Position numbers and translations under genes: made by a program
Notes under the pieces: model-generated
Database searches by the model: none
What the model saw: only the letters and a program-made list of their open reading frames with translations
What the model was told of the DNA's origin: nothing
Shown here: in pieces, positions 54,333 to 58,013 of the stretch
Position numbering within the stretch: position 1 is the first letter of the stretch
Layout of the letters: each line of letters begins with the position of its first letter
Source: an uncultured Phascolarctobacterium sp.
GTDB taxonomy: Bacteria > Bacillota > Negativicutes > Acidaminococcales > Acidaminococcaceae
Direction: 5' to 3'
Length of the DNA stretch: 60,308 bases
Assembly (NCBI GenBank): GCA_947629685.1
Contig: CANREP010000010.1
Coordinates: 1 to 60,308 of the forward strand

Positions 54333-55331
54333 ATGAAATTAGGCAATGTAGATATCGATGTGCCGGTAGCGTTGGCGCCGATGGCGGGGATAACGGATCT
54401 GCCGTTCAGGTTGATCTGCCGCAGGCTGGGCTGCGGCTATACCGTGTCGGAAATGATCAGCGCCAAGGGACTGTTGTATAATAATTCCAAAACCAAAGAA
54501 ATGCTCAAAATCGACAGTGGCGAAAGGCCTACCGCCATTCAGCTGTTTGGCAGCGTGCCGGCAGAACTGGCAGAAGCAGCCATGATAGTCGCAGACAGCG
54601 GAGCAGACATGATAGATTTAAATATGGGCTGCCCCGTACCGAAGATAGTCAATAACGGCGAGGGGTCGGCGCTGATGAAGCAGCCGCGCCTGGCCTATGA
54701 GATACTGGCAGCGATGGTAAAGGCGGTCAAAATTCCAGTAACGGTAAAATTCCGTGCCGGCTGGGACGACGAGCACCGTAACGCTGTGGAGGTAGCAAAA
54801 GCTGCCGAAGCTGCCGGTGTAGCCGCTGTTGCAGTGCATGGCAGAACCAGGCAGCAGTTTTATGAAGGTAGGGCTGATTGGCAGATTATCGCACAGGTCA
54901 AAAATTCTGTTAAGATCCCGGTCTTTGGCAACGGCGATATTTTTTCTGCAGCTGACGGGCTGCGGATGCTGGCAGAAACTGGGTGCGACGGACTGATGGT
55001 GGGCAGGGGGGCGGACGGCAATCCCTGGATTTTCCGGCAGCTGCGCGCAGCGCTGCAGCAGCAGCCTTACAGCGGGCAAGTGCCGTTGCAGGAAAAGCTT
55101 GATTTAGCAGCAGAACATCTGCGGATGCTGATTGAATTGAAAGGCGAATATATTTCCGTCAAAGAAATGCGCCGCCATATTTCTGCTTATCTGAAAGGGA
55201 TGCCGTATGCGGCCGAATACCGCAGCCGTTTCCATAAGATGGATACTTACGGTCAGTTCATGGAGTTATTAGAAGAATATCGCAGCTGTGCAGAAAAATA
55301 TTATGCTGCTGAAAAACATTTTTGCGGGTAA
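54333..55331 (+). CDS. dusB: tRNA-dihydrouridine synthase, DusB-type
   Basis: A 332-residue FMN-dependent reductase of uridines in tRNA. The TIM barrel opens with ALAPMAGITDLPFR. The catalytic Cys is in DLNMGCPVPKIVNNGEGSALM (about residue 98). The Lys/His site AVHGRTRQQFYEGRADW is at about 166. The FMN-phosphate loops are GNGDIFS and GLMVGRGADGNPWIF. The C-terminal helical domain is present. Position before lysS matches B. subtilis dusB (yacF). Confidence 0.95.
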   Translation: MKLGNVDIDVPVALAPMAGITDLPFRLICRRLGCGYTVSEMISAKGLLYNNSKTKEMLKIDSGERPTAIQLFGSVPAELAEAAMIVADSGADMIDLNMGCPVPKIVNNGEGSALMKQPRLAYEILAAMVKAVKIPVTVKFRAGWDDEHRNAVEVAKAAEAAGVAAVAVHGRTRQQFYEGRADWQIIAQVKNSVKIPVFGNGDIFSAADGLRMLAETGCDGLMVGRGADGNPWIFRQLRAALQQQPYSGQVPLQEKLDLAAEHLRMLIELKGEYISVKEMRRHISAYLKGMPYAAEYRSRFHKMDTYGQFMELLEEYRSCAEKYYAAEKHFCG

Positions 55332-55362: not shown

Positions 55363-55400
55363 AACAATTTGTAAAAGAAGCGATTTTGGGAGTATTTGGC

Positions 55401-56333
55401 ATGAATTCAGCAAAACATTCCAGACACGTTGTCAGCGTCAGCCTGGGGTCATCCGAAAGAGACGCCAGGGCAGTAATGTCTTTGGGCGATACGGAGATAA
55501 CCATTGAAAGATGCGGTACGGACGGCGATCTGGAAAAAGCCAGGAAGCTATTGGAATATTGGGACGATAAGGCGGACGCCATAGGTCTGGGCGGTACTGA
55601 TTTGTACGTTTATGCAGGCGGACGCCGTTATACCTTTAGGGAATCCGCCGCGCTGATTGCCAATGTCAGACATACTCCCGTGCTGGACGGCAGCGGGCTG
55701 AAAAATTCGCTGGAACGCCGTCTGATTAAGAAACTGGCAGCCGACGGTACTGTGGCAATCAAAGACAGCCGTGTGCTGCTGGTATGCGGTGTCGACCGTT
55801 TCGGTATGGCAGAAGCGCTGCAGGAAGAAGGCGCCAAAGTTACTTTTGGCGACCTGATTTTCGGCCTGAATGTCAATAAACCGCTGCATTCTCTGAAGGC
55901 GCTTAGCTTTTGGGCAGCGCTTTTAGCGCCTGTCATTACCAGACTGCCGGTGAGCTGGTTTTATCCTATGGGCAGCGAGCAGAAAAAGCGGACTGTGCGT
56001 CATGCCGAATATTTTCTTGATAACGATATTATTGCCGGTGATTTTCATTATATCCGTAAATTTATGCCGGAAAGGCTGCCGGATAAGGTTATTATCACTA
56101 ATACAGTTACGGCAGCGGACCGTGAAATGCTGCGCCGGGCAGGGATAAGGATGTTGATTACTACCACGCCGCGGCTGGAAGGACGCAGCTTCGGCACCAA
56201 TGTCATGGAAGCGATGCTGGTTGCTTTAAAAGGCGGCAAAAAGCCCTTAAGCGCCGCTGAATATATACAGCTGTTGGAAGATTATAAGATTGAATCGTCT
56301 GTGGAGTACCTGAGTACGAAGGAGCAGCAATAA
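55401..56333 (+). CDS. Unrecognised conserved-looking protein paired with an acyl-ACP-reductase-like gene
   Basis: I cannot place this 310-residue protein in a family with confidence. It has no signal peptide. A Rossmann-like centre is suggested by SRVLLVCGVDRFGMAEALQEEGAKVTFGDLIFG (about 130-160), with a hydrophobic patch following (FWAALLAPVITRLPVSWFYPMG). The N-terminal part has LGSSERD and a Gly-rich IGLGGTDLYVYAGGRRY segment. The C-terminus has TTTPRLEGRSFGTNVMEAMLVALKGGKKPL. ATG 55401 follows GGGAGT at seven bases. It ends three bases before the next gene, so the two almost certainly act together. A dehydrogenase-like or substrate-handling role is possible but unproven. Confidence 0.75.
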   Translation: MNSAKHSRHVVSVSLGSSERDARAVMSLGDTEITIERCGTDGDLEKARKLLEYWDDKADAIGLGGTDLYVYAGGRRYTFRESAALIANVRHTPVLDGSGLKNSLERRLIKKLAADGTVAIKDSRVLLVCGVDRFGMAEALQEEGAKVTFGDLIFGLNVNKPLHSLKALSFWAALLAPVITRLPVSWFYPMGSEQKKRTVRHAEYFLDNDIIAGDFHYIRKFMPERLPDKVIITNTVTAADREMLRRAGIRMLITTTPRLEGRSFGTNVMEAMLVALKGGKKPLSAAEYIQLLEDYKIESSVEYLSTKEQQ

Positions 56334-56336
56334 CTG

Positions 56337-57419
56337 ATGGAAAAATTTGCATTTATCATACATCCCTTGTCCATTAAGGATATGGGACATGTTTCGCCGA
56401 TTCTGAAGTATATTCCAGACGGCGTGCTGGAAGCTTGCCTGAAAATGAAAAAACCTTTTAAGGTTTCTCATATCACGGGTATCCAGAGTCCTTATGCCGA
56501 AGCTGAAGGCTGGTTTGTCGGCTGTCCGCTTACGGCGCGGCAGATGGTAGAACTGCCTGAGGAATTCGTCATGGACAGGATTATTGAATCCGGCAAGATA
56601 GCGCAGGAACTGGGCGCTAAGATTGTCGGTTTGGGCGCTTTTACTTCCGTAGTCGGAGATGCCGGTATCACCGTGGCCAAGCATCTTGATATAGCGGTTA
56701 CTTCCGGCAACAGCTATACTGTCGCTACGGCTATCCAGGGGACGAAGGCCGCTGTCAAGCTGATGGGCAAAAAATTGGCCGACTGCCGTGCCGTAGTTGT
56801 CGGCGCCAGCGGATCTATCGGTTCTGCCGGCGTAAGATTACTGGCCGGCGAGGTGAAACATATCACACTGGTGGCAAGACATCTGGCGCCTTTGGAAGAA
56901 ATTGCCGACGAGCTGATTAAAAAAGAACAGTGCGATGTCGTGGTAACGGATAATATCCATGAAGCGCTGCGGGAGGCAGATATAGTCATCACCGTGACCA
57001 GCGCTCTGGACTTTATCATCGAGCCGGAAGACTTAAAGCCCGGTGCAGTCGTCTGCGATGTGGCAAGGCCTCGTAATGTCTCCCGGGAAGTTTCCGCTAA
57101 GCGCAAGGATGTCTTGGTCATTGAAGGCGGCGTTATCGATGTGCCGGGCAATGTCGATTTTCATTTTAATTTCGGCTTCCCGCCGCATACTTCCTACGCC
57201 TGCATGGCAGAGACCATGATTCTGGCTTTAGAAGGCAAATATGAAGATTTTACTTTGGGCAGGCAGCTTGATCTGGCAAAAATCAGGCTGATCAGCGACC
57301 TGGCAGTTAAACATGGCTTTTCGTTATCCGGGTTCAGAAATTTTGAGCGTGCTGTTACCGAAGAAGAGATTAGCAGTATCAAGAATCTGGCTCAGCAGGA
57401 ATTAAAGATACATGGATAA
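56337..57419 (+). CDS. Acyl-ACP-reductase-like oxidoreductase
   Basis: A 360-residue protein whose layout resembles cyanobacterial long-chain acyl-ACP reductase (AAR). The N-terminal part starts FAFIIHPLSIKDM, then IVGLGAFTSVVGDAG (about 97-111) and TSGNSYTVATAI (about 122-133). A Rossmann fold has VVVGASGSIGSAGVRLL (about 153-169) for NAD(P)H. The C-terminal YACMAETMILALEG has Cys289 where AAR has its acyl-thioester Cys, followed by DFTLGRQ and LAVKHGFSLSGFRNF. Family knowledge suggests reduction of a fatty acyl thioester to an aldehyde. No aldehyde deformylating oxygenase is nearby, as expected in an anaerobe; an aldehyde for ether lipids is one idea. Confidence 0.7.
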   Translation: MEKFAFIIHPLSIKDMGHVSPILKYIPDGVLEACLKMKKPFKVSHITGIQSPYAEAEGWFVGCPLTARQMVELPEEFVMDRIIESGKIAQELGAKIVGLGAFTSVVGDAGITVAKHLDIAVTSGNSYTVATAIQGTKAAVKLMGKKLADCRAVVVGASGSIGSAGVRLLAGEVKHITLVARHLAPLEEIADELIKKEQCDVVVTDNIHEALREADIVITVTSALDFIIEPEDLKPGAVVCDVARPRNVSREVSAKRKDVLVIEGGVIDVPGNVDFHFNFGFPPHTSYACMAETMILALEGKYEDFTLGRQLDLAKIRLISDLAVKHGFSLSGFRNFERAVTEEEISSIKNLAQQELKIHG

Positions 57420-57536: not shown

Positions 57537-58013
57537 ATGGCTAATAAAGAAACTATTTTGACAGCTGAAGGCCTGAAAAAATTAGAGGAAGAATTAGATA
57601 ATCTCCGCACCGTCCGCCGCCAGGAAGTGGCAGAACGTTTAAAAGTAGCTATTTCTTATGGCGATATCAGCGAAAACTCTGAATATGACGATGCCAAGAG
57701 CGAGCAGGCTTTTATTGAAGGCCGTATCCTTGAACTGGAGCAGATGATCAATACAGCAATCATTATTGACGACACTGCCAGCAAGAAGAAAGACGTTGTT
57801 TCCTTGGGCTCTACCGTAGTGGTAAAGGATCTGGAAACCGGCGACGAAGATACTTATACCATTGTCGGCACTACAGAGGCTGATCCTTTTAAAAACCGCA
57901 TTTCCAACGAATCACCGGTAGGAGCGGCTATTCTCGGCCATAAAGTGAATACTATCGTACAGGTAAATACTCCTGCCGGCGAGCTTTCCTATAAGATTAT
58001 CGAAATAAAATAA
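57537..58013 (+). CDS. greA: Transcription elongation factor GreA
   Basis: A 158-residue secondary-channel factor that rescues backtracked RNA polymerase by stimulating transcript cleavage. The N-terminal coiled coil (about 8-75) carries the acidic tip in GDISENSEYDDAKSEQAF. The C-terminal FKBP-like domain ends SPVGAAILGHKVNTIVQVNTPAGELSYKI. AAAGGAGC precedes the ATG. lysS follows after 15 bases. Confidence 0.96.
   Translation: MANKETILTAEGLKKLEEELDNLRTVRRQEVAERLKVAISYGDISENSEYDDAKSEQAFIEGRILELEQMINTAIIIDDTASKKKDVVSLGSTVVVKDLETGDEDTYTIVGTTEADPFKNRISNESPVGAAILGHKVNTIVQVNTPAGELSYKIIEIK

Follow-up and report, generated by a model that had tools for sequence, protein, structure and literature searches.

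A predicted acyl-thioester reductase, a putative Cys-less companion of similar predicted fold and an unlinked class III aminotransferase in a Phascolarctobacterium genome

We analysed a stretch of 60,308 nucleotides (the window) from an uncultured Phascolarctobacterium sp. and found that it carries an adjacent gene pair encoding two proteins, here called P1 and P2. Our best explanation, which as a whole we think probable, is that P2 reduces an acyl thioester, that a class III aminotransferase (TA) aminates the resulting aldehyde and that P1 is a Cys-less companion. We are confident that P2 is an acyl-thioester reductase, and we consider it likely that P2 is coupled to TA towards an amine. In this pathway Cys289 of P2 would take the acyl group from acyl-ACP (or acyl-CoA), NAD(P)H at the GASGSIG loop of P2 would reduce the acyl-enzyme with release of the aldehyde, and TA, which is encoded elsewhere in the same genome, would aminate it. 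P1 would be a distant Cys-less relative with the fold of acyl-ACP reductase (AAR), most likely binding a ligand or regulating alongside P2 and having a separate task as well. Our data show the predicted folds, the residues, the synteny and the co-occurrence of P2 with TA; we infer from them the reaction and its direction, how long the acyl chain is and all that we say on the role of P1.

PtTamH, a characterised relative with the same two domains, converts ACP-bound C12 to the C12 aldehyde and then to the C12 amine with NADH and L-Glu (PMC9594044). Transaminase activity has been measured for fusions from Thermincola and Thermaerobacter, in which the Cys and the loop were also mapped (PMC10829540), and in PigE thioester reduction precedes transamination (PMC8341465). 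The pairing of reductase and transaminase had been described in a small number of natural-product clusters (those of prodigiosin, tambjamine and koreenceine). In our data the two functions occur together as a conserved chromosomal combination in about half of the sampled phylum, gut commensals included. If the explanation is true, many anaerobes make an undescribed aliphatic amine. More tentatively, an HTH protein (P0), P1 and P2 together with the unlinked TA might constitute a widespread acyl-to-amine system of anaerobic Bacillota, in which P1 would found a new family of Cys-less AAR-fold sensors or regulators; natural-product pathways would then have recruited their PigE, TamH and KecF enzymes from such a module.

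P1 is an ORF of 310 aa (55401..56333, + strand). Its ATG is at 55401, preceded by a TTG in the same frame at 55386. P2, the predicted AAR-fold acyl-thioester reductase, is an ORF of 360 aa (56337..57419, + strand). A reading of the sequence alone had described a two-gene unit with three-base spacing. Both ORFs are present on the + strand, and the P1 stop TAA (56331-56333) is followed by CTG and then by the ATG of P2, which gives a gap of exactly 3 bp. A scan for promoters and terminators gave no clear excess over shuffled sequence. The pair is flanked upstream by a gene at 54333..55331 (+ strand) and downstream by one at 57537..58013 (+ strand), which we take from family knowledge to be dusB-like and greA-like, respectively; both are the same neighbours across the phylum. 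Among 61 relatives, a sample that includes the window genome, and 299 genomes of the phylum, the usual order was dusB-[P0]-P1-P2-greA-lysS. P0 is a protein of 180 aa that adjoins P1 in 36 of 54 loci inspected and is missing in the genus of the window, whose genome (G000) has Phascolarctobacterium (Negativicutes) as its nearest named relatives. A fusion of P0 with P1 was considered and rejected, the long P1 frames being upstream read-through with no P0 match.

The sequence-only reading had taken P2 for a homologue of AAR with a Cys at the catalytic place, and we found all of the motifs that it had quoted. These are GAFTSVVG from residue 100 (GAFTS, residues 100-104, 56634..56648, + strand, in alignment A2), the dinucleotide loop GASGSIG (residues 156-162, 56802..56822, + strand; GATGDIG in AAR), YACMAET, which contains Cys289, and LAVKHGF. 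The codon of Cys289 lies at 57201..57203 (+ strand), and the residue aligns with the catalytic Cys294 of AAR. Chance does not account for the resemblance. P2 matched the NCBIfam PigE model NF053554 over residues 3-355 with 218.5 bits (1.8e-64; PigE cut-off 850 bits), and the NCBIfam AAR model TIGR04058 with 107.9 bits (6.6e-31), far short of the curated equivalog cut-off of 449.7 bits. A sequence search of the PDB found the AAR chain 6jzq at 4.5e-22, with Cys289 over Cys294, and the profile of A2 matched PigE 4ppm at 1.3e-47. The AF2 model of P2 (pLDDT 89) had AAR 6jzq as its best structural match (Z 36.5, 323 residues), followed by the AAR-like domain of carmabin synthetase 9E4S (Z 35.4), while the next unrelated fold was at Z 14.8. 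P2 is an AAR-fold, Cys-dependent-looking reductase that by sequence is nearer to the PigE thioester-reductase domain than to AAR. The fold, the Cys and the loop of the AAR assignment stood, but P2 falls far below the AAR cut-off and is closer to the PigE-type domain. In the P2 tree the window protein groups among syntenic P2s; the long deep branches that lead to AAR, PigE and the Cys-less proteins are not joined reliably.

In Pfam, P2 matched only the Shikimate_DH Rossmann domain (PF01488, 4.8e-15). Assignment as a shikimate or quinate dehydrogenase was rejected because the match is to the Rossmann domain only: shikimate dehydrogenase models scored P2 at about 20 bits, whereas their cut-offs are about 200-300, and no curated AroE/quinate dehydrogenase model matched P2 at its cut-off.

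All 21 P2 homologues of A2 have Cys289 and a GxxGSIG-type loop. At the P2 position, canonical P2s retain these two features, but both have been lost from the proteins of L097, L107, L125, L131 and L136, which suggests that these Cys-less syntenic relatives retain a non-catalytic role. Further P2-position neighbours (L045, L057, L110 and L126 among them) are more degenerate or lack a clear alignment. Two of these, L057:6884-7921 and L045:7069-7890, look like highly degenerate relatives of P2, and no other clear P2 was found in their genomes. Three genomes (G091, G254, G363) keep TA although their syntenic P2 has lost the Cys and the loop, which counts against our best explanation. Some genomes with a Cys-less syntenic P2, such as G096 and G294, appear to carry a separate TA-P2 fusion as well.

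P1 had been called unrecognised, and by sequence this is correct: searches of Pfam and NCBIfam, and of the PDB by phmmer and with a profile, gave no significant match. Its predicted structure, however, resembles AAR. The AF2 model of P1 is confident (pLDDT 91) and has AAR 6jzq as its top structural match (Z 14.3, 249 aligned residues, rmsd 4.5 A), with the next unrelated family at Z 10.1; Foldseek also puts AAR at the top (5e-6, TM 0.47). In 30 diverse P1 sequences (alignment A1) we counted 47 invariant columns. D132 and R133 of the motif VDRFG (residues 131-135, 55791..55805, + strand) are invariant in these 30 sequences, and we infer, from motif order placed by eye, that VDRFG may stand where P2 has GASGSIG. 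Asn267 (codon 56199..56201, + strand), within the invariant RSFGTNxxEA of A1, is probably at the place of Cys289 of P2, a placement that comes from motif order and not from residue-level superposition. P1 is predicted to have an AAR-like fold, probably with neither the catalytic Cys nor the glycine loop at the expected places. Comparison of profiles (hhalign) between P1 and P2 or AAR gave a probability below 1%, even with 84 and 61 sequences, and because this lends no support to homology, common descent of P1 and P2 is plausible and not shown. The model is the first structural clue for a strongly conserved, unassigned family.

The two genes are neighbours in most loci inspected. P1 was found in 41 and P2 in 39 of the 61 relatives, and in the phylum sample, where P2 was counted at E up to 1e-30, P1 was present in 224 and P2 in 187 of 299 genomes. 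Both occur in 184, and the pair is conserved. The suggestion that P1 is a likely obligate partner of P2 needs qualifying: 40 of the 224 P1 genomes lack P2, and therefore P1 is not simply an obligate partner. The same count favours a different view of P1, as an independent housekeeping enzyme beside which P2 stays merely through an old operon. P1 also stands without a neighbouring P2 in Thermus, in a Chloroflexota-type MAG (Promineifilum) and in some Clostridia, its strong conservation would suit such an enzyme, and a Thermus/Deinococcus family annotated as quinate 5-dehydrogenase, uncharacterised in PMC9425974, may be the P1 family. Against this, every one of the 136 genomes with a canonical P2 has P1, the genes adjoin at most loci, and the closest fold to P1 is that of its neighbour. 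We regard an independent P1 as possible, though on balance doubtful, and prefer a Cys-less companion of P2.

The aminotransferase of the window genome lies on another contig than P1-P2 (C9:3588-4829) and matches PF00202 at 1.2e-107 and PigE at 1.4e-125. Our search query was the transaminase found fused or adjacent to relatives of P2, and the high-scoring class was counted. Among the 61 relatives TA and P1-P2 gave counts of 38/3/1/19 (p=1e-11), and at genus level 25/0/0/8 (p=7e-8); apart from the genus-level count, the P2-TA co-occurrence p-values ignore phylogeny. When we kept the 48 relatives with a completeness of 90% or more, P1 and TA occurred together in 33, both were missing from 14 and one had TA only. 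A standalone TA was present in 115 of 136 genomes with canonical P2 and in 6 of 112 without P2 in the phylum sample, and when fusions were counted on both sides the figures were 156 of 187 and 6 of 112. The remaining 21 of the 136 canonical-P2 genomes have no TA at the cut-off used, and this counts against our best explanation.

Physical linkage was also observed. TA adjoins P2 in L168 and in Anaerovirgula (L080), and TA-P2 fusions of about 870-910 aa, transaminase first, were found in L073, L074, L122/L173, L174, L175 and L176, an arrangement also known from tambjamine and koreenceine enzymes. For most of the other fusions counted, the evidence is a match in two pieces together with a frame of about 850-1080 aa. 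In some P1 genomes that lack an adjacent P2, a P2 relative is fused to TA (L073, L074) or beside it (L080). Of 20 complete genomes, 3 had TA no more than 10 kb from P2, against an expectation of 0.14; two of the three are one genus. In most genomes they are far apart, which again counts against coupling of the two. On contig C9 of the window genome (L148:2203-4832), the gene after TA encodes an SRPBCC protein (polyketide cyclase/lipid transport) of 144 aa, and HtpX comes next; this order was seen in most TA loci inspected, and the TA-SRPBCC pair recurs at most loci of this TA class. In L169, L170 and L172, a stretch of about 12 kb holds TA, three small genes that we presume from family knowledge to be DUF2229/BcrA-like, P0, P1 and P2, with dusB too in L169 and L170. 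An 844-aa fusion in the PigE order, reductase then transaminase, was found at L177:2081-4615 in G200, whose genome carries a canonical P2 and a TA besides.

The aldehyde made by P2 could alternatively feed lipid or ether-lipid metabolism (plasmalogen, long-chain alcohol), with TA a mere fellow traveller. AAR proper yields C16/C18 fatty aldehydes, and the three DUF2229/BcrA-like genes of L169, L170 and L172 are directly upstream of dusB-P0-P1-P2. Relatives from Thermus have an AAR-like protein that runs on into a PlsY-type acyltransferase, as in Thermus parvatiensis (L079:4974-6518, - strand), where the frame changes for the C-terminal part; the Cys is retained in the AAR-like pieces of L076 and L077. 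A supply of aldehyde for plasmalogens had been proposed as a possibility from the sequence alone, but the distribution of PlsA-like genes does not follow that of the pair: for PF09989 in frames of at least 900 aa, which is only a proxy for PlsA, the counts with P1 in 61 genomes were 28/13/14/6 (Fisher p=1.0). Anaerobes make plasmalogens by direct reduction of diacyl lipids via PlsA/PlsR (PMC9702350). It is TA that tracks P2 instead, and TA adjoins or is fused to P2 in several lineages. We therefore consider a role in lipid supply unlikely and favour amination of the aldehyde. Least probable of all is the catabolic direction, in which TA would deaminate an amine and P2 oxidise the aldehyde to a thioester, since TA, although it scores 494.7 bits against the putrescine aminotransferase model PRK11522 and 420.6 against PigE and has a putrescine aminotransferase as its best PDB match, stays under the putrescine aminotransferase cut-off of 612, and the characterised TA-reductase fusions PtTamH and PigE run towards the amine.

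Among known systems, cyanobacterial AAR (6JZQ, TIGR04058) shares with P2 the fold, the Cys and the loop, but P2 is distant from it in the tree. As the sequence-only reading had said, there is no aldehyde-deformylating oxygenase (ADO): PF11266 had no match in the whole genome of P2, while the Synechococcus elongatus control was positive. The AAR/ADO alkane pathway was rejected on this ground. The AAR-like domain of carmabin synthetase has the same fold as P2; it is part of an assembly-line protein and its sequence matches P2 weakly (about 1e-9). By sequence, P2 is matched best by PigE of prodigiosin synthesis, a reductase domain with a class III transaminase; the match spans almost all of P2, the Cys is the same, and the transaminase half of PigE is related to TA. 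In contrast to PigE, P2 is a separate reductase-only protein in a housekeeping gene order, where no pigment cluster was seen. The transaminase-AAR fusions PtTamH, KecF, TmFusion, TsFusion and TfFusion differ in that the window genome has P2 and TA as separate unlinked genes outside a natural-product context. They combine the same two activities that are predicted for P2 and TA, and they share their domain order with the fusions of L073 and L122/L173.
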